From: Calditrichia bacterium
GTDB taxonomy: Bacteria; Calditrichota; Calditrichia; RBG-13-44-9; J075
DNA: 64,000 nt
Direction: 5' to 3'
Assembly: GCA_028284905.1 (NCBI GenBank)
Contig: JANQQU010000085.1
Span: forward strand, 1-64,000
The notes below the pieces were generated by a model. The model made no database searches and was not told the origin of the DNA. It was given only the letters and a program-made list of their open reading frames with translations. Below are positions 23,101-56,014 of the stretch, one piece after another. Each line of letters begins with the position of its first letter. Position 1 is the first letter of the stretch. Both the position numbers and the translations under genes were made by a program.

Positions 23101-26100
23101 AATTACCAGTTTTCCCGCGACCTCAACAACGACGTTTTTGATCCCGCCCAGCCGAATTTTATTGAGACGATTCTTCATCATGATAATGGCTGGCAGCAAG
23201 TTTCCCGGGCTTTCTATGACGGACGGGCGCAGCTGCTACAGTCAGCAGCACGGAACACCACTATTGGCGCGGATATTTATGCTGCGACAGAAAGTGATCT
23301 GCTCGGTCGAAAAGCGCGTGAGTATAAGCCTTATGAGCTCACTTACAGCAGCAATGCAACACCTCCCGGTTACGATCCGGATTATCGCCAGCGGAATGAA
23401 GACGGCACGCTCAGCAGTAGCACCGGTCATCGGTACAGCGAATACAGCTACCAATCCATGCTCGATGAAGAACTGCGGGAAACCGGCTTTCCCGGTATAA
23501 AAACCGAGGATAACAAGCAGCGTTTTTACAGCAGTTACGTCCGGGGAGATAATGCACTTCCCAACTTTTTCGGCAACGGAAATATCATTCTGAAACGTAC
23601 TGCCATCATTGATGAGTTGGGCAACGAAACGGCCACTTTCAGCGATGCGCTCGGCAGCAAATGGATTGAGCAGAACTATAACGGCAATGGTCTGGCAACC
23701 AGTTCGGTAGCCGTTAGCTGTAACAGTCCCTGCGCGCAGAACGACAAAACCACTTTTACCCTAAGCACTGCCCAAACCATCTACTGGCATTGCGCCCTGA
23801 ACGAGCGACATTCCACAGACGATTTGGTGTTCCGCCTGCGCCGTATTTCTCCGAATCCGGCAACACTCGTTGAAATTTTCGGTGACACCGGTGGCAACCT
23901 TACTGGGTCAGTTACAGCAATCGCCGGACAATACGAGCTAATGGTTTCCGTAGAAACCCTGCAGAATGACCATGGCGCCACAAATGCCAGCGGCAGCGCC
24001 TCCTATCTCGATACCAGCCCGCCGGTGGAAAGCACTACGGCGTTCAAGTATGACGGTAGCGGGAACATCACCACCGTTTATCCGCCGAATTACTTCGATT
24101 CGCCCAACGGCGCTCCGCCTGCGAATTGGCTGACGAACTATCAATATAACGTCCTTGGTCAGTTGGCGGAAAAAACCTCGCCGGATGCCGGTAGCGTTGG
24201 CTACAAGTACGACCCGAATGGCAATCTCCGCTTCAGTCAGGATGCCCGGCAAAGTGGCAATGGTCAGGTCACTTTCAGCAATTACGATTTTGCCGACCGC
24301 CCCCTCATTAGCGGGGAAGCCGGAGGCGGCAGCGCCACTGAAGGCTTGCTGAACATTGCTAATCTGAATGGCGCAAGCAGCTATGGATTTGAAAACACAA
24401 ATGACAATTGGCTGCATGTCAATCATTATGATGCCCCACAGGATATTACCGCCTATCCCTGGAACATCTTTCCAGCAGGAGATTACGGCAGCTTTACCCA
24501 GACTTACCTCGTCGGGAAACTCGCCGCCAGCGCTTATCGTTCCGCAGACAAATGGCAGGTGACGCTCTATACCTATGACAACAGCGGGCGAATCAAACGA
24601 AAGCGGATCCTTACTGAAGGGCTTGATCACTTAACGATCACCTATACCTACAACCGCCAGGGGCTCGTTTTAGAAACCCGCGCGAAGTTGGGTGGGAAGA
24701 ACTTCTATCATTTCTATGATTACGACAACCTTGGTCAGCTGCTCAGCGTGGCGACTTCCGAAAGTAGCACAGCGAATCTGCTTGATGCCGCTTTCAGCTA
24801 CTATCCCACCGGTGCCATGAAGCAGCAGCAGCTAATCGAATATAGTAGCAACACCTTCCGGGAAACCCTCGACTATGAATATAATCTGCGTGACTGGCTA
24901 ATCAGGATTGGTGATACCGGCGATCCCACAAAGCCCTTTGGCGCGCTGTATAGCTACCTAGCTAACGGTAATATTCAATCGGCGGAATTTTACAGCAAGC
25001 AATCGCCGAGCGAGCCTCATTACCGCTACGATTTTCAGTATGACGGCCTCTCACGCATTACCGCTGCCGACTACTTTATTCCCAGCGGCAGCAATTGGAA
25101 CGATGTCAATCGATTTGGCCTCAGCAACCTCAGTTATGATGCGAATGGAAATATTTTTAGCCTCAACCGTCAGGATAACAGCGGCAGCACGCTCGACCAG
25201 CTCAGCTATCAATATGGTGCAGAGAACAATCGTCTCACCGCCGTTAGCGATGCTGCCGGCAATAGCGCCAACATCGATTGGGATGCAGAGAGCAGCAACT
25301 TCAGTTATGATGCCAATGGCAATGTGAGCAGCGTTTCCGAGAACGGCAGCACGGTGATCAGCAGTATTGTTTATGATATGAACAACCTGCCCACTCGCAT
25401 CAATTTTGCCAATGGCAGCGTGGTGAAGTATCGCTATAATTCTGCCGGGCAGCGCATCTACAAAAAAGTTGATAGTCAGCAGGCGGAACACTATATTCTC
25501 GATGAGGATAAGATTCTGGCGGTGTTTACCGGCACCGGCAAACTGAAGTACTGGAATATCCACGGGAATGGGGTAATCGGGAGGCTGGAGTACCGTCCCG
25601 GGGACATACCCACCGAATCCGTTACGCTGGACATACACGACGCCGTCACGACGAACGAGCAGAAAGTTGCTTCCCTTGCCTGGACGTTCAATGGTGTAGT
25701 CGTAGTGGCAGATACCTTCGTGGTTGACCAGCCCGGCAACCATGAAGTGGTGGTAGATATTACCCTCGCCGATGGCTCGGTGATCCAGAATACCCTGGAA
25801 GTGGCGGTAAATCCCGATCCGGAGCCCTACACCAAGCACAAGTTCCTTTATATCAAAGACCATCTCGGCTCCACCCGGACGGTGCTCGATAAAAACGGGG
25901 TGGTGAAGGAAAGCTACGATTATTATCCCTTCGGCCTGGAGATGCCCGGGCGCAGCTTTCTTGAGGGTGATATTGCCACTAAGGAAGGCTTTACCGGGAA
26001 GGAACGAGATGCGGAGACCAACTGGCATTACTTTGGGGCGCGCTATTATAGTGCGGCGTTGGGGCGTTGGTTGGCGGTGGATCCGTTGGAAGAGTATCCA

Positions 26101-26733
26101 TCCGGCTATGTCTATGTTGGTAACAATCCGATACGCTTTTTTGATATTCTTGGTTTATCCAGTTCGGATACATTAGATGTTGAGCCAGTTGTTGTGCAAG
26201 GCTCTGCAGTAACTATAACCGCTTCTCCTCACCACTGGTGGATGAGTTTTGGCGCAATGGGAGGTGCGAGTTTACGTGCAACAAGCAATTTCTTTTTTGG
26301 AACCCCTAATTACAGAAGAGTATTGTATGATGCAGAATACTTTGGTAGCCAAGCTTTACCACATTTTTTAGGATCGGCATTAACTCTACCAATTGGAGGT
26401 GTATCATCTAAGGGTGGTAATGCTATTCTTAAGTACTTATTACGAAAACCTCTTTCCCTTGGTTTTAATTTAGGACAAATAAATACCCTTAGTTTTAAAA
26501 TAACACATATATTTCAACAAAAGCACAAATTGCACGTGCTTGGAGATCAAAAGGCAGTCATCAGGCTAATTAAAAGAATAATAAGGAATGGAAGTGGGAA
26601 CATGACATATAGAACTAAGGATGGTGCAAAAATAATTACGATCCAAACTAGTGCTCAAAACAGTAAATTAACAATTAAAGGGCGACTAAAAGATGGACAC
26701 TTGGAAATTAATGATGCTTGGTATGACTTCTAA
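20191..26733 (+). CDS. RHS/YD-repeat secreted polymorphic toxin, 2180 aa
   Basis: The protein begins with a signal peptide (about 16-31) and a conserved block 'NLSLPVLSVPGLNGLDFPI' of the SpvB/RHS type, then YD repeats in the middle and C-terminal parts (FSYDANGNV, LSYDANGNIF). A beta-rich insert lies near 1190-1270 and an Ig/PKD-like insert near 1806-1880. The RHS core motif DHLGSTRTVLD is near 1890, and the core ends with NPIRFFDILGL at about residue 1989. The RHS shell encloses a C-terminal effector. The tip (1990-2180) is much more AT-rich than the core and unrelated to it; its last 75 residues (KHKLHVLG ... INDAWYDF) look like a small alpha+beta RNase-type toxin, possibly of the polymorphic type 35/BECR kind, but this is tentative. 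AGGGGG precedes the ATG. Immunity-like genes follow from 17 bp downstream. Confidence 0.9.
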   Translation: MRNLLAQQRGNRFAIRSFLLILYFSFQLYPQNDFKRFNEYNMQPEVWHFAGVPEGQVDSKGDLNLSLPVLSVPGLNGLDFPINFSYKAGIAYHQQASWLGLGWNFDPGSITRDVQGNMKIGSTVYDVDFPNEAGTDDFLPDRYYVTIPGRGTLTMFKSNIVGFNDDPSKNEFVAPYNASQFYFEEHFPYKVQAFVDNNYNWPGGSHLDPDKDDYTRFIITTDDGTRYFYGMPSVARFSNIFPSGLPKQHANVWRLMAIAAPDFQGLDGSLLQDDINDPPYGEGSWIKFDYGFNGLGDFAINGAPGQGRLVENIYLKSIKTPTHTVDFISTGGREDIDLKYNPIGDIASTYRRLNEIVLSTKAGDVVQRVKLLNDDTNPASAQYAYHLGRSGNNKGKLTLHGWEYLAHDGSSMPGYRLEYPSGTHNPPWYSGSSLHHYDGFGYYDNLPAAPFYENYNYTDADTSDAQAWSLSKIIFPTGGSEAYEYGNDRIDTENIPLDIYYFRGNNYSPNAINQTFFFSFVNPDNPAYSCRYQGGVRVKKIIRDNGMGDSPLEITYSYGEGHTPAVPPKMMPRWVQVLQSTNSDFDGTQYLYPNEFTAMNRGTMDVHYKWVKRTLPDGSRDSSNYMIGLPHKYILYGDKDAFNWALITGDTDPNWGRQTSRYLMRNGFVDKTTYTYQLPKFLTEAAVVLDNFPVGNPSPNFSYYINQYKPLLFNETSYSYRADNPALFQEVKKHYDYYLRPNPTRQLQRSRVVATDSREVQTDYLYAHEVPDYGGDSWGLGISAPPLSAMRKENLLSAVAQSYQTVYNLQGAYTAQHRNATTTTFKQFDGVWQFHCKYLLTIEAEPQNVTFDDWLDNGSNIDPAWQLQHQATAYQNYRATAFEDANGNSLQLFYGSNNSNFSNTAPDFGHAYLTGIKLNNSLSKAFDYDTRFFQVDAITDENGKKNRFSFDNFGRLISGKNPDNELLAEYNYQFSRDLNNDVFDPAQPNFIETILHHDNGWQQVSRAFYDGRAQLLQSAARNTTIGADIYAATESDLLGRKAREYKPYELTYSSNATPPGYDPDYRQRNEDGTLSSSTGHRYSEYSYQSMLDEELRETGFPGIKTEDNKQRFYSSYVRGDNALPNFFGNGNIILKRTAIIDELGNETATFSDALGSKWIEQNYNGNGLATSSVAVSCNSPCAQNDKTTFTLSTAQTIYWHCALNERHSTDDLVFRLRRISPNPATLVEIFGDTGGNLTGSVTAIAGQYELMVSVETLQNDHGATNASGSASYLDTSPPVESTTAFKYDGSGNITTVYPPNYFDSPNGAPPANWLTNYQYNVLGQLAEKTSPDAGSVGYKYDPNGNLRFSQDARQSGNGQVTFSNYDFADRPLISGEAGGGSATEGLLNIANLNGASSYGFENTNDNWLHVNHYDAPQDITAYPWNIFPAGDYGSFTQTYLVGKLAASAYRSADKWQVTLYTYDNSGRIKRKRILTEGLDHLTITYTYNRQGLVLETRAKLGGKNFYHFYDYDNLGQLLSVATSESSTANLLDAAFSYYPTGAMKQQQLIEYSSNTFRETLDYEYNLRDWLIRIGDTGDPTKPFGALYSYLANGNIQSAEFYSKQSPSEPHYRYDFQYDGLSRITAADYFIPSGSNWNDVNRFGLSNLSYDANGNIFSLNRQDNSGSTLDQLSYQYGAENNRLTAVSDAAGNSANIDWDAESSNFSYDANGNVSSVSENGSTVISSIVYDMNNLPTRINFANGSVVKYRYNSAGQRIYKKVDSQQAEHYILDEDKILAVFTGTGKLKYWNIHGNGVIGRLEYRPGDIPTESVTLDIHDAVTTNEQKVASLAWTFNGVVVVADTFVVDQPGNHEVVVDITLADGSVIQNTLEVAVNPDPEPYTKHKFLYIKDHLGSTRTVLDKNGVVKESYDYYPFGLEMPGRSFLEGDIATKEGFTGKERDAETNWHYFGARYYSAALGRWLAVDPLEEYPSGYVYVGNNPIRFFDILGLSSSDTLDVEPVVVQGSAVTITASPHHWWMSFGAMGGASLRATSNFFFGTPNYRRVLYDAEYFGSQALPHFLGSALTLPIGGVSSKGGNAILKYLLRKPLSLGFNLGQINTLSFKITHIFQQKHKLHVLGDQKAVIRLIKRIIRNGSGNMTYRTKDGAKIITIQTSAQNSKLTIKGRLKDGHLEINDAWYDF

Positions 26734-32203: not shown

Positions 32204-33145
32204 TTAATTAACATTTATTCCCTCTATCCGTTTTTGTAGGTTCTCCGGCAGGTATTTTCGGGCCAGTTTGAGGATGCCGGTGGTGCCGAGGTTTACCCAG
32301 GTGCGGAGATTTTCGTCGTTGCCTTGTGCCTCCTGTGCTAACCAAAGCGCGACCGGGAGGGCGCCCCACTTTCGGTCGAACCTTCCTGTGGACAATCCTT
32401 TTAGTAAACTATCCGCTGTAGTTTCATCTGCTGTTGCTAATGCAGAGATTCGCTCGACAAAGATCGGTTGGAGGCGATCGAGCACCTTATTAGCGTGGTC
32501 GGAGAGTATCCCCTTTCCGGCCATCCATTTGGCGGACAGGGAACGATAATTGCCCAGTCCTTCCGTCATACATTCCCAGAGCGCTCTCTCCAATGGGGTC
32601 TCAATCTTCTGTGGATTTTGCTGCCGCCACACCTTGTGGAGTACATGAGTAAATTCATGGGCAAAAAAGCGGTCGATACGCCCGTCGTTTGCCGCTGATG
32701 TGGCCGCGCCGTAAAACTGCCCCATCTTCTCCAGATTAAAACAGATGGTGATTGGGGCAGAAATAAAAGCATCGCTGCCCCCCTGATTTCCCGGTAATAT
32801 ATACACCGTATCCGGTGCTGCTATCCCGCTGAATGGAATTCGCATGCTGTCTATCATCGCTGTCCAGGCTGGTAGCTTTTTCATAATCAGCTGTTGCCAC
32901 AACGCTTCGGCATCATTGTATGGACGGGCGGTTTTCGCAAACCCGGCCAGTGTCTCCGCATCATGGCGTTTTTCGATTGCTTTCAGCCAATGCTGCGTAG
33001 GTAAACCGTTATCCTCGAGGCCAGCCTGCAATATCAAAACCGTTTGATGCGGCGTCATTTGGGAAAAAATGGCGGGGCTGCACATCAGGATAAATACCCA
33101 GGCGATCCTGCGAAGCTGAGCGAAAAAAAATGCACTAATTTTCAT
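32204..33145 (-). CDS. Secreted HExxH zinc metallopeptidase-like protein
   Basis: The 313-residue product has a signal peptide (about 1-28). It carries an HEFTH zinc motif (HExxH) and a downstream acidic motif ALWECMTEGLGNY, which fits a gluzincin-type third ligand (Glu). The surroundings resemble the uncharacterised DUF2268-like proteases, but the exact family is not certain. GGAAGG precedes the ATG. Transcribed toward the CBM9-like gene and ending 43 bases from its stop. The role may be extracytoplasmic protein turnover. Confidence 0.75.
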   Translation of the reverse strand: MKISAFFFAQLRRIAWVFILMCSPAIFSQMTPHQTVLILQAGLEDNGLPTQHWLKAIEKRHDAETLAGFAKTARPYNDAEALWQQLIMKKLPAWTAMIDSMRIPFSGIAAPDTVYILPGNQGGSDAFISAPITICFNLEKMGQFYGAATSAANDGRIDRFFAHEFTHVLHKVWRQQNPQKIETPLERALWECMTEGLGNYRSLSAKWMAGKGILSDHANKVLDRLQPIFVERISALATADETTADSLLKGLSTGRFDRKWGALPVALWLAQEAQGNDENLRTWVNLGTTGILKLARKYLPENLQKRIEGINVN

Positions 33146-33487
33146 TATCTTCCTTCCGGATTCTTTTAATCAATATCACTGCTGCGGATATACGGAAAGA
33201 TTTCTTTTTTGATGTGTTTTTTTCAGGAAAGGAAAATCAGGCAGGCACTTCCACCCGGTATCTTTTAAGTCTACCGGACGGCATAAAATGTTATAAAACA
33301 AACAGATATTTAGGTAGTGTTAAAGAAGTAATGCTGCAAGCTGTCATCGCGAGGAGTGCAACGACGTGGCGATCTCTCTGTGGATGCAACTTGTGAGATT
33401 GCTTCGGCAAAAAACGCCTCGCAATGACAGATCCAATAGTATTACATGTTTAACACTACCGATATTTACTCTATCGAGAGAATGGTA
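33146..33487. other. Intergenic region with a nested inverted-repeat element
   Basis: The gap between the metallopeptidase and the pstB gene carries the element described at 33304-33472. No gene is visible. Confidence 0.7.
33304..33472. repeat. MITE-like element with nested inverted repeats
   Basis: The outer ends contain GGTAGTGTTAAA and its complement TTTAACACTACC (12 perfect bases in ~30 aligned). The inner part is the GTCATCGCGAGG element (33342-33429), ending GCAATGACA. At 19783 the related element is followed by a similar AACACTAC tail, so the outer ends may belong to the element. It carries no gene. Confidence 0.75.
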
Positions 33488-34264
33488 TCAACCGTAACGC
33501 CCCTCGATATAATCGGCAGTTTTCGGATTCTTCGGGGTAAGGAACATCTCCTCGGTGCGGGTATGCTCCATAATTTCACCGAGCAGCATAAAGATGCATT
33601 CATCGCTCACCCGGCGCGCCTGGGCCATATTGTGCGTCACAATCACAATCGTATATTTTCCGGCGAGGGTAAGCATTAGTTCCTCTACTGCGCGGGTCGA
33701 TTCAGAGTCCAGCGCGGAGCAAGGCTCGTCCATCAAAATGATATCCGGCTTAAGCGGCAGGAGGCGGGCGATACAGAGCTTTTGCTGTTGCTCCAGCTGC
33801 AGGCCAGTGGCTTTCTTATCGAGCTTATCTTTGAGATCGTCCCAGAGAAAAACTTCCCGCAGGGATTTTTCCACGACTTCATCCATCTCGGACTTTTTGA
33901 TATTTTTCCGGCGGGAATGCACTCGCAGTCCGAAGACAACATTCTCATAGACGGAAATTGGTAATGGATTCGGGCGCTGAAAAACCATCCCGATTGCTTT
34001 GCGAAGTTCCGGGAGAGATACATCATCATCGTAGATATTTTTTCCGTTGATGAGAATTTCCCCGGTAGTGGTTACGTTACCATAGCGTTCATTCACCCGG
34101 TTAAAACAGCGGAGCAAAGTCGTTTTTCCGCAACCGGAAGGTCCAATCAACCCGGTGATAATCCCATCGGCGATATTCACGGTCACATTAATCAGCGCCT
34201 GAAAATCACCATACCATAAGTTCAGTTTATCGGTAGTAATTGTATACTTAGTATCGTTGCTCAT
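33488..34264 (-). CDS. pstB: PstB-like phosphate ATPase, signature motif lost
   Basis: The 258-residue ATPase has Walker A GPSGCGKT (41-48), Q-loop Gln96, Walker B with D179/E180, D-loop and H-loop His211, all canonical. The place of the LSGGQ signature (155-159) reads LQLEQ, so Ser and both Gly are gone; the following QQKLCIAR is kept. This is unusual for PstB, which normally works as a homodimer needing its own signature. The preceding pstB gene has the opposite defects, and the two overlap by ATGA, so a heterodimer with one competent and one degenerate ATP site is inferred. It would drive phosphate import through PstA/PstC. Confidence 0.93.
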   Translation of the reverse strand: MSNDTKYTITTDKLNLWYGDFQALINVTVNIADGIITGLIGPSGCGKTTLLRCFNRVNERYGNVTTTGEILINGKNIYDDDVSLPELRKAIGMVFQRPNPLPISVYENVVFGLRVHSRRKNIKKSEMDEVVEKSLREVFLWDDLKDKLDKKATGLQLEQQQKLCIARLLPLKPDIILMDEPCSALDSESTRAVEELMLTLAGKYTIVIVTHNMAQARRVSDECIFMLLGEIMEHTRTEEMFLTPKNPKTADYIEGRYG

Positions 34265-35028
34265 CCGAAATTCCCGTTTACATAGTCATAAGTCATTTTC
34301 TGTGCAGGCTTTTCCGAAAAGATGACATCATTGTCATCGATCTCAATCAAATCGCCGTTAAAAATAAAAGCGGTCCGATTCGCCAGACGCCGGGCCTGCT
34401 GCACCAGGTTGGTTACCAGAATAATTGTCATCTCCGAACGCAATTCCTTTAGAACGTCTTCAATGCGCATCGTTGTTACCGGATCCACCGCGATAGAGAA
34501 TTCATCCAGGCAGAGAATTTCCGGCTGATGAGAAAGCGCGCGGGCAATGGTCAGGCGCTGCTGTTGCCCCCCGGACAATTTTGTACCGAGGCTGTCCAGG
34601 CGATCTTTCACTTCGTCCCATAAAGCGGATTGCTTCAGGCAGCGTTCCACCAGTTCGTCCAGATCCGTTTTGTTACGAATACCGGCTGCTCTTGGGGCAA
34701 ATGCGACATTGTCATAAATCGACAGCGGCAAGCCGACCGGCAGCGGAAACACCATGCCGACTTTCCGACGTAATTCGTAGACATTCTTCATTTTCATGAC
34801 GTCTTCACCATCGACCTTTACAACACCCTCCGCCTTCGCTTCCGGGATAAATTCAATTGTCCGGTTGATCACTTTCAGCATACTGGTTTTACCAGACTGG
34901 GCCGGACCAATGACCCCGAGGATCTCATTCTCATATACATCAAATGAGATGCCTTTCAGGGCAGTTTTATCCTCGTATTTTACTACGAGGTTGTTAATTT
35001 CTATTTTTTTCTTTTTTGCGTCACTCAT
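34261..35028 (-). CDS. pstB: PstB-like phosphate ATPase, Q- and H-loop lost
   Basis: The 255-residue ATPase keeps Walker A (GPAQSGKT, 41-48), the full signature LSGGQQQR (151-158) and Walker B D175/E176. The Q-loop Gln is Pro95 (MVFPLP) and the H-loop His is Asn207 (VTNLVQQ). The normal PstB sequences are MVFQ and VTHN. The Walker B end, DEF-SIAVD, also departs from DEP-SALD. It can therefore offer a good signature to the partner ATPase but is unlikely to hydrolyse ATP at its own Walker site. AGGAAAAG precedes the ATG; 21 bases separate it from pstA. Confidence 0.92.
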   Translation of the reverse strand: MSDAKKKKIEINNLVVKYEDKTALKGISFDVYENEILGVIGPAQSGKTSMLKVINRTIEFIPEAKAEGVVKVDGEDVMKMKNVYELRRKVGMVFPLPVGLPLSIYDNVAFAPRAAGIRNKTDLDELVERCLKQSALWDEVKDRLDSLGTKLSGGQQQRLTIARALSHQPEILCLDEFSIAVDPVTTMRIEDVLKELRSEMTIILVTNLVQQARRLANRTAFIFNGDLIEIDDNDVIFSEKPAQKMTYDYVNGNFG

Positions 35029-35049: not shown

Positions 35050-35955
35050 CTACCATTTCTTCCGGGAGCGCAGGTAAACCCGCAATACAATTGCCACAGC
35101 ATTTACTAATAAGACGGTTCCCAGCAGGACAACCGCGGTGCCATACGGCAGGGCTGTCGGCACGTTCGGAACCTGGGTCGAGATTGTAAAGAGATGCATG
35201 GACAGCGCCATACACTGGTCGAAGATGCCGTAAGCGAGCAGATCACCTTCGGGGATTGCCTTAAAGAAAACCGCGCCGGTAAACATAATCGGTGCCGTTT
35301 CTCCGGCAGCACGGGAGACCTGCAGAATGATACCGGTCAGAATCCCACTGATTGAATTGGGCAAAACAATACTGCGGATGGTCTGCCAACGGGTCGCACC
35401 AACATTCCAGCAAGCTTCCCGGAATGCGATTGGCACAGCCCCCAGCGCTTCTTTGGTACTGGCGATAATCACCGGCAAAGTCATAATTCCCAGGGTGAGT
35501 GATGCCGCGATAATCGAGCGCCCCATCCCGGCAAACAGTACGAATGCACCCAAGCCGAAAAGCGCGTGGACAATACTGGGCACACCGGCGAGGTTTACCA
35601 CCGCCAGGTTGATAATCCGGGTAAACCAGTTATCCTTGGCATATTCGTTCAGGTAAACCGCAGCGAGCACGCCAATCGGTGCAGAGGTTACCAGTGATAT
35701 TACGACCAGATAGATGGTACCCAGTAACGCTGCCCAGATACCACCATCACGCATCCCGCGGATTGGATTGGTGAAAATAAAATCCAGGGATAATACTGGT
35801 GCCGCCTTGACAAACAGATAACCGACAATCAGAATTAGCGGCAGGATCATCAAAAGCGTCATGGACATGAAGATATATTTTGCCAGCCCCTGGTAGCGTC
35901 GCTTGGTGCGCACAAAAGGGGTTTCCGTATACATAGCCTGCGTTGTATTACTCAT
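35050..35955 (-). CDS. pstA: Phosphate ABC transporter permease PstA
   Basis: The 301-residue protein has six membrane helices and the PstA features: a first helix after a basic N-terminus, 'GGIWAALLGT', 'APIGVLAAVYLNEYA', and the ATPase-contact (EAA) loop 'EALGAVPIAFREACWNVGATRWQTI'-type sequence, followed by 'ISRAAGETAPIMF'-like residues. It forms the channel with PstC. It lies 67 bases after pstC and 21 before the first pstB. Confidence 0.95.
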   Translation of the reverse strand: MSNTTQAMYTETPFVRTKRRYQGLAKYIFMSMTLLMILPLILIVGYLFVKAAPVLSLDFIFTNPIRGMRDGGIWAALLGTIYLVVISLVTSAPIGVLAAVYLNEYAKDNWFTRIINLAVVNLAGVPSIVHALFGLGAFVLFAGMGRSIIAASLTLGIMTLPVIIASTKEALGAVPIAFREACWNVGATRWQTIRSIVLPNSISGILTGIILQVSRAAGETAPIMFTGAVFFKAIPEGDLLAYGIFDQCMALSMHLFTISTQVPNVPTALPYGTAVVLLGTVLLVNAVAIVLRVYLRSRKKW

Positions 35956-36022: not shown

Positions 36023-36916
36023 TTACTGCTCCTTAATTCCTTTGACAACCAGATCCGCGATCAGATTTACCGCGAAAGTGATTGTAAAGAGCAGAATACC
36101 GATAATAAACAGTACCTGATAATGATCGGATGCGACCGGCGCTTCACCCAGTTCCGCGGCGATTGTCGCGGTAAGGGTACGGACGGAGTCCAGCACACTG
36201 CCGGGAATCTTTACGGCGTGGCCGGTGGCCATCAATACCGCCATGGTTTCCCCGACTGCACGGGCAACACCGAGCAATACCGCTGCTAGCAGCCCATTTT
36301 TTGCGGCGGGCAGCAACACCCGGTAAATCATCTGCCAGCGGGTGGAACCCAGTGCTTCCGCCGCTTCCCGATAGGAATCTGGCACCGCTTTCAAGGCATC
36401 TTCCCCAATGGATACAATAATCGGGACACTCATTAATGCCAGGATAATCCCACCGTTCAGTACCGTCAGCCCAATCGGCGCATCGAAGAGCGTGATAATC
36501 AACTCATTCATCAATGTCAATCCGATAAATCCCCAAACAACTGAGGGAATTGCAGCGAGCAATTCGATCACAATCTTAAACGTTTCTTTCGCCTTCGGTC
36601 CACAAAACTCCGAGACGTATATAGCGGCGCCCAGTCCAAACGGAACAGCAATGGCCATGGACAGCAGAGTAACGCTGGCAGTACCGGCCATTAAAGCCAA
36701 TACCCCATAACGTTTCTGACTGACCGATGTCGGATACCATTCCGGGCTGGTAAGGAATTGCCAGAGATCCAATCCTCCGAAGAGGAACTCTGCCCCTTCA
36801 CGAAAAACAAAAAAGAAGATTCCGAAAACAAAGAGGATGGCACTGATGCCGCAAATCCGAATCAGCCATTCTATGGCTGATTCAGTGATAATTTCCAGTT
36901 GCTTACGATTTCCCAT
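36023..36916 (-). CDS. pstC: Phosphate ABC transporter permease PstC
   Basis: The 297-residue product has six helices, with the GLGAAIYVSEF and AAIPSVVWGFIGL motifs and an EAA loop ending in 'EALGSTRWQMIYRVLLPAA', then 'GVARAVGETMAVLMATGH', all typical of PstC. It forms the phosphate channel with PstA in the inner membrane. AGGGAA precedes the ATG; 27 bases separate it from pstS. Confidence 0.95.
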   Translation of the reverse strand: MGNRKQLEIITESAIEWLIRICGISAILFVFGIFFFVFREGAEFLFGGLDLWQFLTSPEWYPTSVSQKRYGVLALMAGTASVTLLSMAIAVPFGLGAAIYVSEFCGPKAKETFKIVIELLAAIPSVVWGFIGLTLMNELIITLFDAPIGLTVLNGGIILALMSVPIIVSIGEDALKAVPDSYREAAEALGSTRWQMIYRVLLPAAKNGLLAAVLLGVARAVGETMAVLMATGHAVKIPGSVLDSVRTLTATIAAELGEAPVASDHYQVLFIIGILLFTITFAVNLIADLVVKGIKEQ

Positions 36917-36943: not shown

Positions 36944-37873
36944 TTATTCTGCAGATGCTTCCGGCATAACCGCCGGGACGTAACCGCTTGCTTTAACAAT
37001 ATTTTGACCCGCTTCGGACATGACCCAATCCAGATATACTTTGATATCTCCGGTCGGCTCACCGAGGGTATACATATAGAGGGGACGGGCAATCGGATAG
37101 TCGCCGCTCAGGGCAGTTTCCAGGGAAGGGCCAAATGCATCGTCACCAGCATTTTTAGCAACTTTCACAAACTTCACATGATCGGTTTTATAACCCATAC
37201 CACTGTAACCGATAGCGCAGGGGGTTCTTTCAATCAACTCTACCACGTCTTTGGAGCCGTGCAGGTCGCGAGAGCCCAGCTTGAAATCGCTGGTGTTGCC
37301 GAGCAGTGTTTCCCGGAAATAATGATAAGTGCCGGAGTTGGACTGGCGGCTTACCCGGATAATTTCATCACTGGAGCAGGCGCCATGGCTTAACCCAAGG
37401 TCACTCCATTTTTCCAGCGTGCCTTTTTCGCCATAAATGTTTGCCAGCTGCTCAATCGTAATTTCATTCAGGGGATTATCCTGATGAACATATACGGCCA
37501 GGGCATCGTAACCAACAATGTATTCTTTCGGTTCCAGACCGGTGTTTTGCTTCGCTCTTTCCCGCTCTTCCGGTTTCAGCTGGCGACTGCAATTGGCAAT
37601 ATCGACCGTTCCATTGATCAGGGCAGCGATACCGGTACCAGAGCCACCGCCGGAAACTTCGATAGAAACAGCTTCATTAACGCCCACATATTTTTCCGCC
37701 CAGGCCTGGGCCAAATTTACCATTGTATCTGAACCAGAGTTTTGAATCACCATTTTCTCCGGCCCCGCGTCTCCGCCACCACTTTTCGATCCGCAACCGG
37801 TCAATAAAAAACTGCCGGTAATCGCAGCTAAAATTACCGAGAACTTTACAGTTTTTCGAATTTGGGTAAACAT
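36944..37873 (-). CDS. pstS: Phosphate-binding lipoprotein PstS
   Basis: From ATG 37873, preceded by AGAGGAGA, the 309-residue product has a lipobox LLTGC and a Ser/Gly-rich linker. It belongs to the PBP_like_2 phosphate-binding group: 'NSGSDTMVNLAQAWAEKY', 'VSGGGSGTGIAALINGTVDIA', 'RQSNSGTYHYFRE' and 'AIGYSGMGY' carry the phosphate contacts (Ser/Thr/Gly-rich loops and Arg/Asp). It captures phosphate outside the inner membrane and passes it to PstCA. The start at 37942 is rejected because it would bury the signal peptide and overlap phoU. Confidence 0.95.
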   Translation of the reverse strand: MFTQIRKTVKFSVILAAITGSFLLTGCGSKSGGGDAGPEKMVIQNSGSDTMVNLAQAWAEKYVGVNEAVSIEVSGGGSGTGIAALINGTVDIANCSRQLKPEERERAKQNTGLEPKEYIVGYDALAVYVHQDNPLNEITIEQLANIYGEKGTLEKWSDLGLSHGACSSDEIIRVSRQSNSGTYHYFRETLLGNTSDFKLGSRDLHGSKDVVELIERTPCAIGYSGMGYKTDHVKFVKVAKNAGDDAFGPSLETALSGDYPIARPLYMYTLGEPTGDIKVYLDWVMSEAGQNIVKASGYVPAVMPEASAE

Positions 37874-37886
37874 TGTGTCTCTCCTC

Positions 37887-38984
37887 TTATTTGGATTCAT
37901 TGCCCAGGATCGCTTCAACCAGGTCCCGGATATTTTTATCAAGATATTCGTAGGTTTTCAAATAGGCGGTTTCCACTTCTTCCTTGGAACCTTTCAGCTT
38001 GGAAGGATCATCGACTTGCCAGGGGATATAAACTGTTTTGCTCGGACCGGGGAATGCAGCTTCCACTTCTTTACAGAGCGTGATGATCAGTTCGTAATTT
38101 TCCAGATTAAGTATCTGGTTAACATATTTCGATTCCTGATCGGAAATGTCGATACCCTTGTCTTGCATAAACTTGATAGTTTTCTCATCGACGGGATGGG
38201 GAGAAATTCCAGCGCTGCTAAAGGAAAAGCGGTCCTGCCCTAACGCATTACCGATCCCCTCTGCAATCTGCCCGCGACAGGCATCATGTTCATCGACGAA
38301 CAATACCCGGAAGGTGCCGCCGTCTTTATGCTTGATGTTCTTACCGGTCGTCATAAAAAGTACTTCTTCACAGATATTACAGGCCTGGTCCGCGGCACGC
38401 TCGAAACGGCTGGTAATAATCATCAACGGCGCCAGCGCCTCCAGCGGCAACTTGTCTTTCTCCCGCATGGTGACCAGACTGTCATGGATTTCCGTGCGAA
38501 TATCATCTACCTTGCCTTCCAGCTTCATGGTTTGCTTGGCAAGTTTGGCATCTTCATTAACAAAAGATTGCAGCGCGTTGCGCACCATGGGAATAGAATG
38601 ATTGGCGATATTGATGATATTATCATAGGAAGGCTGTGGCTCTATACCACTAAGGTTGAGGAAATGACGGGCGATGCTCTCTGCGTAATCGCCGATACGC
38701 TCTAATTCGTTATTAATTTTGATCACAGCGTAGACGAAACGGAGATGTGCCCCGGCCGGCTGCTGCCGCACCAGAAACTCCTGGCAAAGCTTATCCAGTT
38801 CCCGTTCCATCTCATCGATATAACGGTCTCTGAGCACCACAGAATATGCCTGCTGCCGGTTGTTATTCCGAATTGCCTCCAGTCCCGCTTCCAGTGCCTG
38901 CTCCGCCATGTTACCCATTTCAATAACCTTGCTGCGAATTTGGTCGATGTCTCTTTGCAGACTGGTTTCCAGTTTTGATGTCAT
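37887..38984 (-). CDS. phoU: PhoU fused to a nucleophile-less ArsC/LMW-PTP domain
   Basis: The 365-residue product begins with PhoU (about 1-215), two three-helix repeats with the metal-binding E-R-x-x-D motifs ELERIGDYAES and RFERAADQACN. The rest (about 224-365) is an arsenate-reductase/low-molecular-weight phosphatase domain: VLFVDEHDACRGQIAEG, 'SSAGISPHPVDEKTIKFM', 'KGIDISDQESK' and 'IPWQVDDPSK'. The family P-loop is C-x5-R; here the nucleophile is Asp231, while Cys236 and Arg237 remain, so oxyanion binding may persist without catalysis. PhoU signals phosphate sufficiency between Pst and the PhoR kinase. A bound phosphate or arsenate reader is inferred. GAGGAG precedes the ATG; pstS starts 13 bases after its stop. 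Confidence 0.93.
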   Translation of the reverse strand: MTSKLETSLQRDIDQIRSKVIEMGNMAEQALEAGLEAIRNNNRQQAYSVVLRDRYIDEMERELDKLCQEFLVRQQPAGAHLRFVYAVIKINNELERIGDYAESIARHFLNLSGIEPQPSYDNIINIANHSIPMVRNALQSFVNEDAKLAKQTMKLEGKVDDIRTEIHDSLVTMREKDKLPLEALAPLMIITSRFERAADQACNICEEVLFMTTGKNIKHKDGGTFRVLFVDEHDACRGQIAEGIGNALGQDRFSFSSAGISPHPVDEKTIKFMQDKGIDISDQESKYVNQILNLENYELIITLCKEVEAAFPGPSKTVYIPWQVDDPSKLKGSKEEVETAYLKTYEYLDKNIRDLVEAILGNESK

Positions 38985-39310: not shown

Positions 39311-40735
39311 TTATCCAAAAATGAGTTTCAGGATTTGATAAATAACAATCGCACCAATAGCCCCGGCGGGAATTGTCACAACCCAGGAAATGAGAATATT
39401 TGTTACAACACCCAGGTTAAGGGCACTTATCCCGCGGGCAAGCCCTACACCCAACACGCCCCCGACTAATGTATGAGTTGTGCTGATTGGCAAGCCGAGT
39501 TTAGAGGCAATAACGATTGTCGTAGCAGCAGCAAACTCCGCACAAAAACCACGGGTTGGAGTCAATTCGGTAATTTTCTTTCCGATAGTCAACATCACCC
39601 GCCAGCCCCAGGTTGCCAGGCCAACGACAATACCGACACCACCCATACCAAGCACCCAAAGTGGCACGGCAGACTTCATAGCGACCGCGCCAGTGGTTAC
39701 AATCGAGATGACTGCTGCCAGCGGTCCGACAGCATTTGCAACATCATTGGCGCCATGGGCAAAAGCAACAAAAGCAGCGCTCAAGATCTGTAGATAAACA
39801 AATATTTTTTCAACCGTGCGATAATCAGCGCGGCCTTGCTCAACAACGGATCCTTCTTCAATCTCACTCTCGATGGTTTCCAGATTTTGAATGGTTGCTT
39901 CCAATTGCATCTTAATCTCGCCAGTGGCCTGAGAAGCACCTTTGTTCAGCTGCTCCAGCGCTTTCAAAACCCGTTTATTGACCTGAGCACTCTGGCGTAC
40001 TGTTACCCGGTCTTTCACTTCCTCGGTTTTAATTCGTTTCACCAGAATACTACTAATGAATGAGGCAATTAATCCCACAACAGAGGCAACCCCGATAGAT
40101 TCCCACAATTCCAGATCAAGTTTTAAATTTTTCAGTCCTTTAAAAACCAGCGTAAGGGTTAAAACACCAAATACAAAAAACACCAGATAGGGTGTTATCC
40201 GCTTAGCAGCCTTTACCGGATCGTCACTGTTAAATATCAGCTTTCGAATTAGCATAAAGATGAGGAAAGCGATGGTTCCGCATAGTAAAGGCGATACAAC
40301 CCAACTGGCAACGATGGAGCCGACTTTCGGCCAGTCCGCAGCATCCATACCATGATACATTACACCAAACCCCAATACTGCCCCGACAATGGAGTGGGTC
40401 GTAGATACCGGCCAACCGAAATATGATGCCAACTGTAGCCAAACTGCCGCTGCGAGCAGAGCGCCGATCATCCCGAACGCCAGATCCATTTCCACACCTA
40501 AAAACAATTCCGGATTAATAATTCCTTTCCGGACTGTTTCCGTTACGTGGGTACCCACAAAAAATGCACCTGCAAACTCCAGCACTGCAGCAATGATAAC
40601 CGCCTGTTTAACTGTCAGTGCACCGGATCCAACTGAAGTGCCCATCGCATTGGCGACATCATTCGCACCAATACTCCAGGCCATATAAAATCCCCCGGAG
40701 ACCGCGATTATTAAAATGATTGTTTCAAATGCCAT
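39311..40735 (-). CDS. pit: Pit-type inorganic phosphate permease
   Basis: The 474-residue protein has about 11 membrane helices and the duplicated PiT signature GANDVANA in both halves (SIGANDVANAMG and AHGANDVANAVG), plus STTHSIVGA and STTHTLVGG. A ~95-residue soluble loop (about 232-305, Glu/Lys-rich) separates the halves, longer than in E. coli PitA. It exchanges phosphate with cations across the inner membrane at low affinity. It lies 56 bases after the DUF47 gene and is followed by a terminator. Both are under an array of Pho-like boxes. Confidence 0.96.
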   Translation of the reverse strand: MAFETIILIIAVSGGFYMAWSIGANDVANAMGTSVGSGALTVKQAVIIAAVLEFAGAFFVGTHVTETVRKGIINPELFLGVEMDLAFGMIGALLAAAVWLQLASYFGWPVSTTHSIVGAVLGFGVMYHGMDAADWPKVGSIVASWVVSPLLCGTIAFLIFMLIRKLIFNSDDPVKAAKRITPYLVFFVFGVLTLTLVFKGLKNLKLDLELWESIGVASVVGLIASFISSILVKRIKTEEVKDRVTVRQSAQVNKRVLKALEQLNKGASQATGEIKMQLEATIQNLETIESEIEEGSVVEQGRADYRTVEKIFVYLQILSAAFVAFAHGANDVANAVGPLAAVISIVTTGAVAMKSAVPLWVLGMGGVGIVVGLATWGWRVMLTIGKKITELTPTRGFCAEFAAATTIVIASKLGLPISTTHTLVGGVLGVGLARGISALNLGVVTNILISWVVTIPAGAIGAIVIYQILKLIFG

Positions 40736-40791: not shown

Positions 40792-41469
40792 TTACTTGAT
40801 GTCCAGGAGCATACGGACGCGATTTGCCAGTTTCTCAGATGAGTTTCCTAATGCAGCGATCGACCTCAAAACACTCATCCAAAGCGTGAAACTGGTATAG
40901 GGCATCGTATCGCCATGATTAAATAATTTCTTGCTTAATTCCCGCTGAAGAATATCTGCTTCATGTTCTAAAAATGCGACGCTTTCTACCATCAGTTTTA
41001 CCTTTTCCGCCTCTTTTCCGCCAAATGAAGCTTCAAGTAATTCATCCATTTCCCGAATAATGTTTTGCGCACTAACAACAGCTTCCATATTCTTTTTCAG
41101 GAAATTATTAAATTCATCTTCCATTCCGGGAAGCGGATCGAGATCATCCTTAAGGGTCATCAGAATACCGATATCTTCGGCTTGATCCGCGATATCATCC
41201 TGTATGCCGAGGATTTCCAGTAAATCACCACGGTTAACCGCCAAAAACAGACCTTTCGGCAAATGATTGCGTATTTCGTTTTTGGTTAGATCAGCGGCGT
41301 GTTCTGTCTCAGATATCTCGTCGGCCAACTCATTCATTTTTGCAAAATCCTTTTTGAAATAGGCTTCAAAAAGGGCATCCAGTTTTTTTACACAGCTGGC
41401 GACCTTTTCCATATGCGATTGCAAAGGGGAAAAAGGAGACTGTGCAAAAAGATTCTTAAAAATAGACAT
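40792..41469 (-). CDS. DUF47/PhoU-like Pit accessory protein
   Basis: The 225-residue protein is all helical and matches the DUF47 (TIGR00153) family: 'SPFSPLQSHMEKV', 'EISETEHAADLTKNEIRNHLPKGLFLAVNRGD' type metal-binding E/D-rich helix and 'SVAFLEHEADILQRELSKKLF'. These are PhoU-related proteins encoded with Pit permeases and thought to regulate them. GGAGG precedes the ATG at 6-7 bases. It is the first gene of a two-gene unit with pit. Confidence 0.92.
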   Translation of the reverse strand: MSIFKNLFAQSPFSPLQSHMEKVASCVKKLDALFEAYFKKDFAKMNELADEISETEHAADLTKNEIRNHLPKGLFLAVNRGDLLEILGIQDDIADQAEDIGILMTLKDDLDPLPGMEDEFNNFLKKNMEAVVSAQNIIREMDELLEASFGGKEAEKVKLMVESVAFLEHEADILQRELSKKLFNHGDTMPYTSFTLWMSVLRSIAALGNSSEKLANRVRMLLDIK

Positions 41470-47140: not shown

Positions 47141-47776
47141 ATGAAAGTTCAGATCAGGGAATTCTTTTATATTTCAAATTTATTGAGCATCAGCCGGGTG
47201 TTATTCGCAATTCCGATTGCCTACTATATTCGCTTGAATACGCCGGATGGGAATGTGATTCTGCTGATTCTCTGCGTCATAGCCACCGCCACCGATTTTC
47301 TCGATGGCTATTTTAGCCGGAAACTGAATCAGGTGACCGACCTGGGCATTTTGCTCGATCCCATTGCGGACAAAATCAGCATGGCAATCATTCTGATTAG
47401 CCTGATCGTTTACCGGGATTTTTCCATTCCCCTGACAATTTTCCTGGTCTATCGGGATCTGCTGATTGTATTGGTTGGTTCATTTACCATCAAGAAACAG
47501 GAAAGCCCGGTAATGGCCAATTTTCTTGGGAAGATCAATACCTGTCTTTTAGCATTTACAGCAATTCTATATATGGCAAACGTTAAAAATGAAGTGTTTA
47601 CATTTTTTCTCATCGCCAGCTACCTGAGTATTTTTATTTCCGGATTTTCCTATATGAAGGTTGGCGAAGCGTTACTTTTTACAGATGTACGTAAGCGCTA
47701 TGTTTTCCGGGCGGCGGTCGTCCTGCTAACTATTGCTGTTGTTTACCTGACCGGATCAAACTATGCCTTCATCTAA
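47141..47776 (+). CDS. CDP-alcohol phosphatidyltransferase
   Basis: The 211-residue product has six membrane helices. The family motif D-x2-D-G-x2-A-R-x8-G-x3-D-x3-D is present as DFLDGYFSRKLNQVTDLGILLDPIADK (Ala replaced by Ser), with all four Asp intact. It transfers a CDP-activated lipid head such as phosphatidylglycerol phosphate; the exact alcohol is uncertain. The next gene overlaps its 3' end by 14 bases, so they are coupled. Confidence 0.9.
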   Translation: MKVQIREFFYISNLLSISRVLFAIPIAYYIRLNTPDGNVILLILCVIATATDFLDGYFSRKLNQVTDLGILLDPIADKISMAIILISLIVYRDFSIPLTIFLVYRDLLIVLVGSFTIKKQESPVMANFLGKINTCLLAFTAILYMANVKNEVFTFFLIASYLSIFISGFSYMKVGEALLFTDVRKRYVFRAAVVLLTIAVVYLTGSNYAFI

Positions 47777-48497
47777 AAAGCCGCTAATGATAGCGCACCG
47801 GGGAGAACGCACTTTGTCCCCGGAAAATACTATTCGTGCCTGCCATCTCGCCCTGGCCCAGGGGGCAACCGCCCTGGAGGTCGATGTGCGCATTTGCCGC
47901 AGCGGGGATGTGGTGCTGTTCCACGATTACCTGATGTATCGGCATTTCGGGAAATTTAACCGCATCGAATGCCAGGATATCTCCGAGCTAAAAACACTAG
48001 AGTATCAAATCGGCAGCTACCAGTACGGCGACCGTATGTGCACGCTGGATGAATTTCTCGAAGAGTTTCGCGATACCGTCCCCATCAACCTCGATGCGAA
48101 GTCTCAAACGCTCTTCAATGCTAAATTTGCCAACTCCCTCATCAATCTACTCAATCGTCACAAAATCCACGACCAGGTCTGGGTCTCTTCATTTAACCCA
48201 TTACTGATTCGCCGCATGAAAAAGATTGATCCCTCAATCCGTACCGGTTTCCTTTTTCAGGATCCCCTGCAGTTTTATCGTTTCATCGATATTTTTCTCC
48301 ACTCTGATGCCTGGCATCCGCATCATAAAAATCTTTCCCGCTGGCTGGTAAACAAGGCACGTCGCCTCAACAAAAAGATGTACACCTGGACGGTTAACCG
48401 CCCGGAAGTTTTGGAGCGGGTCATGAAGTATGATATTGACGGGATCATCACCGATGTGTTTTTTCGGAACCGGGAATTAAACGATGATTTTAGGTAG
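47763..48497 (+). CDS. Glycerophosphodiester phosphodiesterase
   Basis: The 244-residue cytoplasmic GDPD has the HRG start (IAHRGERTLSPENT), the E-x-D metal pair (ALEVDVRI) and the catalytic His in VLFHD. It cleaves glycerophosphodiesters to glycerol-3-phosphate. There is no signal peptide. It overlaps the phosphatidyltransferase gene by 14 bases. Its last codons and stop are part of a palindrome (48483). Confidence 0.92.
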   Translation: MPSSKKPLMIAHRGERTLSPENTIRACHLALAQGATALEVDVRICRSGDVVLFHDYLMYRHFGKFNRIECQDISELKTLEYQIGSYQYGDRMCTLDEFLEEFRDTVPINLDAKSQTLFNAKFANSLINLLNRHKIHDQVWVSSFNPLLIRRMKKIDPSIRTGFLFQDPLQFYRFIDIFLHSDAWHPHHKNLSRWLVNKARRLNKKMYTWTVNRPEVLERVMKYDIDGIITDVFFRNRELNDDFR

Positions 48498-48547
48498 AGA
48501 CGATTCATGTAGAGACGATTCATGAATCGTCTCTACCTAAAATCGTC
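48483..48547. repeat. Palindrome centred on TTCATGAA (copy 3)
   Basis: The core TAGAGACGATTCATGAATCGTCTCTA is flanked by GATTTTAGG/CCTAAAATC. The left arm has a 15-base duplication (TAGAGACGATTCATG twice). The outer left arm is the end of the GDPD coding sequence, which is mirrored exactly outside the gene. Confidence 0.92.
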
Positions 48548-48689
48548 CCTACCGATATTCAAAATCCAGGAAGGATTTTTCTTTTTTAAATCCCCGCAAA
48601 ACACTACATTGATACGATTTATCTGAAAACCCTTTTTCGGGCATTCCCTGTGTCCTTGTTTCTCAAGACTGCTTAGTAAAGGAAGATCT

Positions 48690-50504
48690 ATGTCCAAAGT
48701 TACCATGCCGAAAGGTTTTTTCTCCTACATCATTACCCAGAGCCTCGGTGCTTTCAATGACAATTTTTATAAGATGCTTATTCAACTGTATGTTATCCAG
48801 ATTGTTGCGCTGGATAGCCCGGAAAAAGTAATTACCCAGGCCAGCTACCTTTTCACCATTCCGTTTCTCCTGTTCGGCCCCTGGTCGGGATATTTCGCGG
48901 ATAAATTCGCAAAGTCGACGGTGATGCGCGTCGTGAAGTTCGCAGAAATCGGGGTGATGCTCTTTGGCGCTTTGGCATTCTATCTCGGTAATCTCGACAT
49001 GATGCTGTTCATCCTTTTCCTGATGGCGACGCAGAGTACTTTTTTCAGCCCGGCGAAATATGGCTACATACCGGAAGCCTGTAAACCGGAAGCGGTTACT
49101 TCCGCCAATGGCTGGGTCGAGATGAGCACTTTTCTCTTCATCATTCTCGGGACCGCTGCCGTTGGGCCGCTGCTTTCTTTACATGGAGACAATGCCTTTT
49201 CCACCACCTTTTACTGTATCGGGATCGCGGTTGTCGGCTCATTAACCGCTTTAACGATTAAATCCGTACCGGCCACTGGTACCAGCGAGAAATTCCCCTG
49301 GAATCCGGTTACCGGCCTCTTTAAAGATCTTGCTTTTCTGAAACGGCAAAAGCCCTTATTTCTTGCCGCCCTCGCCAACAGTTACTTTTGGATGGTCGGA
49401 TTGATCTTCCAGAACAACATTCTTATTTACGGCAAAAACATGGTGGGAGACGATCCCAACGGCAATACACTACTGACGCTCCTGCCCGCCTTCCTGGGCA
49501 TTGGTATTGCCGTCGGTTCTCCGCTGGCCAGCCGCCTGTCCGGTAAGAAGGTAGAGCTGGGGCTGGTGCCGCTCGGTGGTATTGGCATGGCAATTTGCGG
49601 TATGGGTCTTTTCTTCACCACCAGCAACTATACCCTTTCTTCCCTGCTGCTATTCCTTACCGGTGCATTTGGCGGTCTTTACATTGTTCCGTTGTATGCC
49701 TATCTGCAGTATTACGCAGAGGAGCGCGAAAAAGGGCGGGTGATGGCCACCTCCAATATTCTCAACGGACTTTTCCTGATTCTGGGCACCGGCATCTACG
49801 AACTGCTGGCGGTTTATTTTGCCTTTCCTCCCCATCTCATTTACCTGATAATGGGATTCGTAACGATTCTTGCCGTTGTCTATATTTGTACCGTTATTCC
49901 CGATTATTTCGTGCGCTTCTGTTTCTGGATGATCACCCATCTGGTCTACCGGATTAACATTATCGGGGAAGAACGTATTCCTCTGAAAGGTGCAGCACTG
50001 CTGACCCCGAACCACGTCACCTACGTGGATGCATTTATACTCGGCTCTTCTATCCAACGCTTTGTCCGTTATCTGATGCTCAAAGAGTTTTATGATATTC
50101 CTTTAGCTAAAAAGCTTTTTGTATTGATGGATGCGATTCCTATCGATCCGGCCGCCGGTAAAGGATCAGTTGCCGATAGCCTGGCAACAGCCCGGCAAAA
50201 GCTGCTGGAAGGCCACGTTGTTTGCATCTTTCCGGAGGGTAAATTGACCCAGGATGGTAAAATGAATGAGTTCCGTCCCGGATATGAATCGGTTATGGAC
50301 GGGTTGGATTGCCCGATTATCCCGGTTTATATGGATAACCTCTGGGGCAGTATGTATAGCAAGCAGGGCGGCAAACTCCGCTTTCCGCGTAGTTTTATAC
50401 GGCGGGTAACGGTTTATTTTGGCGAACCATTACCGGCAACAACGAAAGCAGCAGAACTACAGGCGGTAGTTGAATCCATGGGTAAGGAACTTGCCGGGAA
50501 ATGA
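48690..50504 (+). CDS. LplT-like transporter fused to PlsC acyltransferase
   Basis: The 604-residue product begins with a major facilitator of 12 helices (about 10-415; GAFNDNFYKMLIQLYVIQI is typical of the LplT lysophospholipid flippase), followed by a PlsC/1-acylglycerol-phosphate acyltransferase domain (about 425-600) with NHVTYVDA (N-H-x4-D) and FPEGKLTQDG. In E. coli LplT delivers lysophospholipid to the separate Aas enzyme; here flippase and acyltransferase are one protein, and the Aas acyl-ACP synthetase domain is missing. It should re-acylate lysophospholipids. AGGAAG precedes the ATG. Confidence 0.92.
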   Translation: MSKVTMPKGFFSYIITQSLGAFNDNFYKMLIQLYVIQIVALDSPEKVITQASYLFTIPFLLFGPWSGYFADKFAKSTVMRVVKFAEIGVMLFGALAFYLGNLDMMLFILFLMATQSTFFSPAKYGYIPEACKPEAVTSANGWVEMSTFLFIILGTAAVGPLLSLHGDNAFSTTFYCIGIAVVGSLTALTIKSVPATGTSEKFPWNPVTGLFKDLAFLKRQKPLFLAALANSYFWMVGLIFQNNILIYGKNMVGDDPNGNTLLTLLPAFLGIGIAVGSPLASRLSGKKVELGLVPLGGIGMAICGMGLFFTTSNYTLSSLLLFLTGAFGGLYIVPLYAYLQYYAEEREKGRVMATSNILNGLFLILGTGIYELLAVYFAFPPHLIYLIMGFVTILAVVYICTVIPDYFVRFCFWMITHLVYRINIIGEERIPLKGAALLTPNHVTYVDAFILGSSIQRFVRYLMLKEFYDIPLAKKLFVLMDAIPIDPAAGKGSVADSLATARQKLLEGHVVCIFPEGKLTQDGKMNEFRPGYESVMDGLDCPIIPVYMDNLWGSMYSKQGGKLRFPRSFIRRVTVYFGEPLPATTKAAELQAVVESMGKELAGK

Positions 50505-53993: not shown

Positions 53994-54296
53994 ATGTCCG
54001 ATTATAAGTCACGACGTCGTTACAGCAAAGCATTTAAACAAGAAACCGTTGAGCTAATTCTCAATGGTACTCGCCGCATCGGTGATGTCGCCAATGACCT
54101 TGAGATCCATCGCAACACGATCACTCGCTGGGTCAGAGAATACAAAGCGAATGCCGAAGATGCCTTTCCGGGCAACGGCAAACTGATGCCAGCCGATGAA
54201 GAGATTCGCAAACTCAAACGCGAATTAGCCCGGGTAAAACAAGAACGTGACATTTTAAAAAAAGCCGTGGCGTTCTTTTCCAGGGACGAAGAATGA
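53994..54296 (+). CDS. IS3-family OrfA (HTH)
   Basis: The 100-residue OrfA has an HTH_Tnp_1-type domain (RRYSKAFKQETVELI) and a C-terminal leucine-zipper coiled coil, ending LKKAVAFFSRDEE. It binds the IS ends. Near its 3' end lies the seven-A run 54257-54263 (A-AAA-AAA in OrfA frame), a typical -1 slippage site; the -1 frame is open from there into OrfB. The natural product is therefore probably an OrfAB fusion transposase as well as OrfA alone. Confidence 0.95.
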   Translation: MSDYKSRRRYSKAFKQETVELILNGTRRIGDVANDLEIHRNTITRWVREYKANAEDAFPGNGKLMPADEEIRKLKRELARVKQERDILKKAVAFFSRDEE

Positions 54297-55159: not shown

Positions 55160-55189
55160 ATTACTGTCTACCGTTTTGAGGAAGACCAA

Positions 55190-56014
<825 letters not shown>

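Follow-up and report, generated by a model that had tools for sequence, protein, structure and literature searches.

A PhoU protein that is fused to a domain of arsenate-reductase (ArsC) origin, the catalytic residues of which have been lost, heads a pst operon of constant gene order in a Calditrichia bacterium and in several further phyla. The dead domain is maintained by purifying selection, and a fusion of the active type still exists in another genome. The protein was found in a stretch of 64,000 nucleotides (contig JANQQU010000085.1, hereafter the window), and the features on which the analysis is based are listed in Table 1. The most likely reading, which is given about an even chance of being right, is that an ArsC no longer active as an enzyme was put to new use, extending the PhoU of a variant Pst importer for regulation or docking. 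In the literature searched, which included few subscription journals, no description of PhoU fusions with LMW phosphatase or arsenate reductase was found.

Table 1. Features of the pst region in the window.
Feature	Position	Strand	Basis
PhoU-pseudo-ArsC fusion, 365 aa	37887..38984	(-)	ORF, profile matches, AlphaFold2 and Foldseek
PhoU domain, residues 1 to ~222	38320..38984	(-)	TIGR02135, 167 bits; Pfam PhoU, two stretches
Pseudo-ArsC domain, residues ~222-365	37890..38321	(-)	Pfam LMWPc, TIGR02691, PDB 1jl3
Degenerate P-loop D231-E-H-D-A-C-R237	38274..38294	(-)	Sequence and alignment
pstS, phosphate-binding lipoprotein	36944..37942	(-)	TIGR02136, 220 bits; alignment to P. aeruginosa PstS (4omb)
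pstC, permease	36023..36916	(-)	Pfam BPD_transp_1 and constant operon position
pstA, permease	35050..35955	(-)	Profile match and operon position
pstB1; Pro for Gln in the Q-loop, Asn for His in the H-loop, LSGGQ intact	34261..35028	(-)	Profile and alignment
pstB2; signature LQLEQ instead of LSGGQ, other motifs (Walker A/B, Q-loop, H-loop) intact	33488..34264	(-)	Profile and alignment
PiT-type phosphate permease, upstream of the fusion	39311..40735	(-)	Pfam and neighbourhood
DUF47 PhoU-like partner of the PiT permease, accessory neighbour	40792..41469	(-)	Pfam and neighbourhood

Gene, domains and predicted structure

The ORF starts with an ATG at 38984, preceded by the Shine-Dalgarno-like sequence GAGGAG, and its stop lies at 37887, which agrees with the coordinates of the earlier note on this DNA. 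Residues ~9-217 matched the model TIGR02135 (phoU_full) above its cut-off of 130 bits, and Pfam PhoU (PF01895) scored 120.8 bits, its two stretches representing the tandem repeat of PhoU. As is typical for phoU, the gene lies beside Pst transporter genes. For residues 227-354, Pfam LMWPc scored 39.8 bits (cut-off 23.2). The best NCBIfam match of this C-terminal domain was TIGR02691 (arsC_pI258, thioredoxin-type ArsC) with 81 bits, which is below the equivalog cut-off of 174 bits, and a sequence search of the PDB gave B. subtilis ArsC (1jl3) with an E value of 9.7e-15. The fusion was modelled with AlphaFold2 using 37 sequences (pLDDT 92, pTM 0.68); at this pTM, the relative orientation of the two predicted domains is not fixed. 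Using the model as query, Foldseek retrieved PhoU structures (1t72, TM 0.95 by target length) and, with the LMW-phosphatase fold, 1jl3 (TM 0.88). Profile and structure searches thus confirmed the proposed fusion of PhoU to an ArsC/LMW-phosphatase-like domain.

Plain PhoU (TIGR02135, PF01895) corresponds to the N-terminal 220 residues of the fusion in fold, full-length score above the cut-off and pst neighbours. In contrast, the plain family is without the C-terminal ArsC-like extension, and its gene is the last of the pst operon, whereas the fusion gene stands first. Furthermore, the fusion shares several genomes with a plain PhoU paralogue, which is encoded within a few kb of it at six loci (L006, L009, L012 and L188-L190); the genome of the window has one at another place (C21). 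The plain PhoU beside the fusion suggests a division of labour.

Operon and neighbouring genes

At fusion loci with enough flanking sequence, the gene order was phoU-pseudo-arsC, pstS, pstC, pstA, pstB1 and pstB2; incomplete views were obtained for L011, L194 and L201, which are located at contig ends, and for L007, in which PstB2 was not matched. PstS belongs to the phosphate-binding type of P. aeruginosa, the GSDT, SR and SGTY stretches of the phosphate site being aligned, and is followed by PstC, PstA and PstB in the order of a PstSCAB transporter. The true start of pstS is probably the ATG at about 37873. All neighbouring ORFs were clustered and no other cluster was present in five or more loci; on this ground, a common regulator near the fusion was rejected. 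The PiT-type permease was found near the fusion elsewhere only in L007 and L008 and is considered an accessory neighbour.

Outside this region, the window contains an ORF of 2180 aa at 20191-26733 (+) and, at 47141-50504 (+), a phospholipid-type cluster encoding a CDP-alcohol phosphatidyltransferase, a glycerophosphodiester phosphodiesterase and an MFS-acyltransferase fusion. An integrase-core ORF (rve, HTH_21) adjoining a recombinase zinc-ribbon ORF at 54293-56014 (+) possibly represents the remains of a mobile element.

Distribution and selection

One genome per species was surveyed (84,980 species) and whole genomes were searched with family profiles; the collections are incomplete and were partly sampled. 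Fusions lacking the Cys numbered 31, i.e., the window protein, L006-L013, L087, L088, L161, L165-L174, L176-L183 and L233. In the phylum of the window, the fusion was present in three (G000, G005 and G006) among 40 genomes, and in the KSB1-type phylum of L008 in 16 of 82. Nine of 395 sampled genomes had it in the phylum-level group of G104, with which the samples drawn for L013 (labelled Binatota) and G098 largely overlap, and it was also present in G691.

For diverged pairs, omega values (Nei-Gojobori) were 0.12-0.19 in the pseudo-ArsC domain and 0.08-0.14 in PhoU, and the mean column entropy was 1.92 and 1.48 bits, respectively. Hence, the dead domain is maintained by purifying selection, with looser constraint than on PhoU. 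Since the fold is kept at such omega values despite the loss of residues described below, the function of the domain needs neither catalysis nor the P-loop Arg. Purifying selection in several phyla, together with the constant position at the head of the operon, indicates that the dead fusion is a real regulatory variant. Column conservation gave no clear family-specific surface patch, conserved sites being mostly those of the fold core.

Degeneration of the catalytic site

In the window protein, the loop reads V-D231-E-H-D-A-C236-R237, with Asp231 at the position of the nucleophilic Cys. Codon 231 is GAT, from which a Cys codon is two base changes away. The earlier note had recognized this replacement and suggested a census of the residue at the Cys position in PhoU-LMWPc fusions; among the 31 family members, it was Asp in 24, Ser in six, Thr in one and Cys in none. 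A sequencing error or an isolated mutation can therefore be ruled out as the cause of Asp231. The note also held that its idea of a sensor would be weakened if most fusions kept the Cys, which is not the case inside the family, whereas outside of it two fusions, L014 and L243, do keep the residue. Judged from sequence, catalysis by the classical nucleophile is excluded. An exchange of the nucleophilic Cys for Asp within a phosphatase fold is known from the pseudophosphatase D2 domains of PTPRG and PTPRZ, which are only an analogy here, as they belong to the eukaryotic classical PTP fold and context.

The remaining residues of the active site were kept to different degrees. The Arg that would hold the oxyanion remains in the window protein, as the earlier note had stated, and in its nearest relatives (L006, L008 and L011), but it is no feature of the family, being kept in 13 of the 31 fusions and replaced in 18 (by Leu, Val, Tyr, Ser, Thr, Ile and others). 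The redox pair is incomplete in the window, in which Cys304 corresponds to Cys82 but Phe311 is found at position 89; in the family, Cys82 is kept in four members and Cys89 in about one. Of 28 members, 20 have the general-acid Asp in their DP motif. The residue equivalent to Cys236 varies among the other members (Ser, Leu, Ile, Val, Ala, Gly or Pro). Three residues of the loop in the window are acidic, and position 2 is Asp or Glu in about half of the family. The net charge of the loop is negative in 19 of 30 members; it is -2 for DEHDACRG of the window and +1 for B. subtilis ArsC, the reference sequence used for which agrees with 1jl3 in the stretch aligned. On the whole-protein tree, the pattern of the Arg and that of the position-1 residue each require at least three changes. 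The pocket residues (Arg, Cys82 and Cys89) decay separately while the fold stays. On the other hand, Asp in 24 of 31 sequences is far from random, and the old pocket may keep some specific role.

Thioredoxin-coupled ArsC (TIGR02691; B. subtilis 1jl3, S. aureus pI258 1jf8) has in common with the fusion domain the fold, the SAG motif, the W..DP motif, the C-terminal helix and part of the P-loop sequence. It differs in having Cys10, which the fusion family is without, as well as Cys82, Cys89 and Arg16, which the family has kept only as counted above, and in the equivalog cut-off of its model, which the fusion domain does not reach.

The PstB1/PstB2 pair

In the alignment of 26 PstB1 proteins, LSGGQ and the Walker motifs were kept, whereas Pro replaces the Gln of the Q-loop and Asn the His of the H-loop. 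In 25 aligned PstB2 proteins, Walker A/B, the Q-loop and the H-loop were kept and the signature is LxLEQ, LxLDQ or LxLEK. The aligned loci thus encode a complementary pair, in which neither PstB alone has the full set of ATPase motifs. In the geometry of ABC transporters, complementary degenerate motifs result in one consensus and one degenerate ATP site, and the pair appears from its motifs to be of this kind.

Within the KSB1-type phylum, searches at E ≤ 1e-95 detected the variant PstB1 in 15 of 16 genomes with the fusion but in no genome among the 66 others; in the 16th fusion genome (G155), the contig ends in pstC. The same PstB pair was also found alongside plain PhoU in G078 and G636, with a more distant version in G600 and G077; the loci concerned, in other phyla, are L232 and L234 for the pair and L235 and L236 for the distant versions. 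These genomes rule out an exclusive coupling of fusion and asymmetric PstB; the asymmetry, which accompanies plain PhoU as well, extends beyond the fusion. The PhoU of G600 (330 aa; L235, 3420-4409 (+)), which is located beside the asymmetric-PstB pst operon, is extended at its C-terminus by a stretch similar to the winged-helix DNA-binding domain of response regulators.

PstSCAB systems with tandem PstB (B. subtilis PstBA/PstBB, E. faecalis PstB1/PstB2) share the arrangement pstS-C-A-B-B plus phoU and the phosphate-type PstS. The E. faecalis proteins were compared functionally in 2025 in a study which states that no prior one existed (PMC12096839); both have all four motifs, whereas the PstB proteins of the window each lack a different set. 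A consensus and a degenerate nucleotide site are also combined in degenerate-site ABC transporters (reviewed in PMC7756269; B. subtilis RbsA/NupO, PMC11466899), but these are mainly exporters or importers with fused nucleotide-binding domains, while the system of the window is a phosphate importer with separate ATPase subunits.

Origin of the fusion

High-affinity phosphate import can admit arsenate too, which gives a pst operon good use for an active ArsC. G045 has the order pstS-C-A-B-phoU-arsC. Its arsC is an intact gene of its own, and ORFs resembling response regulators and kinases come next; this stretch (L266, 4207-12515 (-)) appears from its sequence to be a complete pho operon with an active-type arsC inside. 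Synteny of ars and phosphate genes is also reported for arsenic islands (PMC3834237). In G1070, a canonical pstB is followed by a PhoU-ArsC fusion (L243) which has Cys, Arg, Cys82 and Cys89 and is 40% identical to the window protein. Likewise, the fusion L014 (Bdellovibrionota) retains the catalytic residues, i.e., Cys, Arg and the redox cysteines. In the tree of ArsC domains, a branch with 100/99 support separated the dead domains from L243, L014 and the solo ArsCs. In the PhoU tree, L243 grouped with the dead fusions (SH-aLRT 99), but its branch is long and its placement, like that of L183, is unsure.

The ancestor of the pseudo-ArsC domain would have been a thioredoxin-type arsenate reductase that probably began as an active enzyme encoded next to phoU in pst operons. 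The arsC gene would then have fused to phoU, and catalysis would have been lost subsequently, with the nucleophile changing from Cys to Asp or Ser, the redox cysteines disappearing and Arg being lost repeatedly under continued selection on the fold. We infer this order (adjacent, fused active, fused dead) from the extant forms.

Two further proteins were noted in the genome of the window. A second Cys-less ArsC-like protein, VCFISDNNTCRS (L004, 1483-2019 (-); G000:C36 near 32763-33149), has Ser in place of Cys and keeps the Arg; its gene adjoins an ornithine carbamoyltransferase-like gene. At the C-terminus of an ATP-grasp-like protein of 584 aa (L003, 196-1947 (+)), an LMW-phosphatase domain has kept its Cys.

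Discussion

The earlier note had proposed that the domain is a direct sensor of phosphate or arsenate. What holds of this is a dead but selected ArsC-like domain on the PhoU of a pst operon; sensing by the P-loop as a general mechanism does not. Most members have lost the Arg and most loops are acidic, which makes it unlikely that holding an oxyanion is their shared function, and oxyanion sensing was rejected for the family as a whole. For the clade of the window, it is unlikely, albeit worth considering, that the pocket binds phosphate or arsenate without turnover, using Arg237 and the loop amides, and reports to PhoU. The Arg in the window protein, L006, L008 and L011, the frequent general-acid Asp and the linkage of arsC and pst elsewhere (G045 and the arsenic islands) agree with such a sensor, but the 18 fusions without Arg occur in the same operon type, the carboxylate of the position-1 Asp sits at the place of the anion, and the three acidic residues give the loop of the window its net charge of -2. 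The PhoU of M. smegmatis has been proposed to perceive intracellular Pi (PMC12301784), which would suit this explanation as well; however, the proposal concerns the PhoU domain, kept by all members. Less probable still is a switch in which Asp231 and its acidic neighbours form a divalent-cation site or a phospho-accepting Asp and render PhoU dependent on metal or phosphorylation. The prevalence of Asp at position 1, of Asp or Glu at position 2 and of net-negative loops points in this direction, as does metal binding by PhoU proteins (literature cited in PMC12301784), and on inspection the VDE or VDD ending strand 1 superficially resembles the acidic pockets of response regulators. Ser in six members and Thr in one imply that the Asp is not essential, and receiver-domain identity of the loop was ruled out, as Pfam, NCBIfam and Foldseek revealed no such homology.

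That the domain is a functionless, decaying remnant carried along by its fusion to PhoU is very unlikely. Absent catalytic residues and a higher entropy than in PhoU are what a remnant would show, but the omega values disfavour it, and the 31 proteins from several phyla have few indels, no frameshift or stop and an invariant fold core. The least credible explanation is residual or alternative catalysis, as a phosphatase or reductase, through Asp231 or Cys236. Asp nucleophiles do occur in other phosphatase folds, and Cys236, Cys304 and Arg237 are kept in the window; however, Cys236 is variable among the members, Cys304 is kept in only four and an alternative catalytic set is not conserved.

In the favoured reading, that of a reused ArsC, a variant Pst phosphate importer would have the fusion as its dedicated PhoU, with the pseudo-ArsC domain as a non-enzymatic regulatory or docking extension of the latter. 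The PhoU domain would engage the cytoplasmic PstB side and possibly also a PhoR-type kinase, and the surface of the pseudo-ArsC domain would set the specificity for the PhoU-Pst complex of this importer. The concentration of conserved sites in the fold core, the prevalence of Asp at position 1 and the long branch of L243 count against this reading. We infer the docking role and PstB1/PstB2 as the contact of the fusion. A further-reaching, rather doubtful view is that these operons represent an undescribed Pst subtype with two selected pseudo-enzymes, namely one of the PstB1/PstB2 ATP sites and the ArsC of PhoU, in which a detoxification enzyme may have become a sensor or docking domain, for instance with an acidic pocket controlled by cations or phosphorylation.

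How PhoU senses the phosphate status and signals to Pst and PhoR is a long-standing question. The family offers a clade-wide pseudo-enzyme of arsenate-reductase origin on PhoU and a living series of separate active, fused active and fused dead forms; comparison of active and dead fusions gives a direct way into what PhoU needs to read and transmit. Moreover, the asymmetric PstB pair provides an example of phosphate import with one ATP site apparently disabled in nature.
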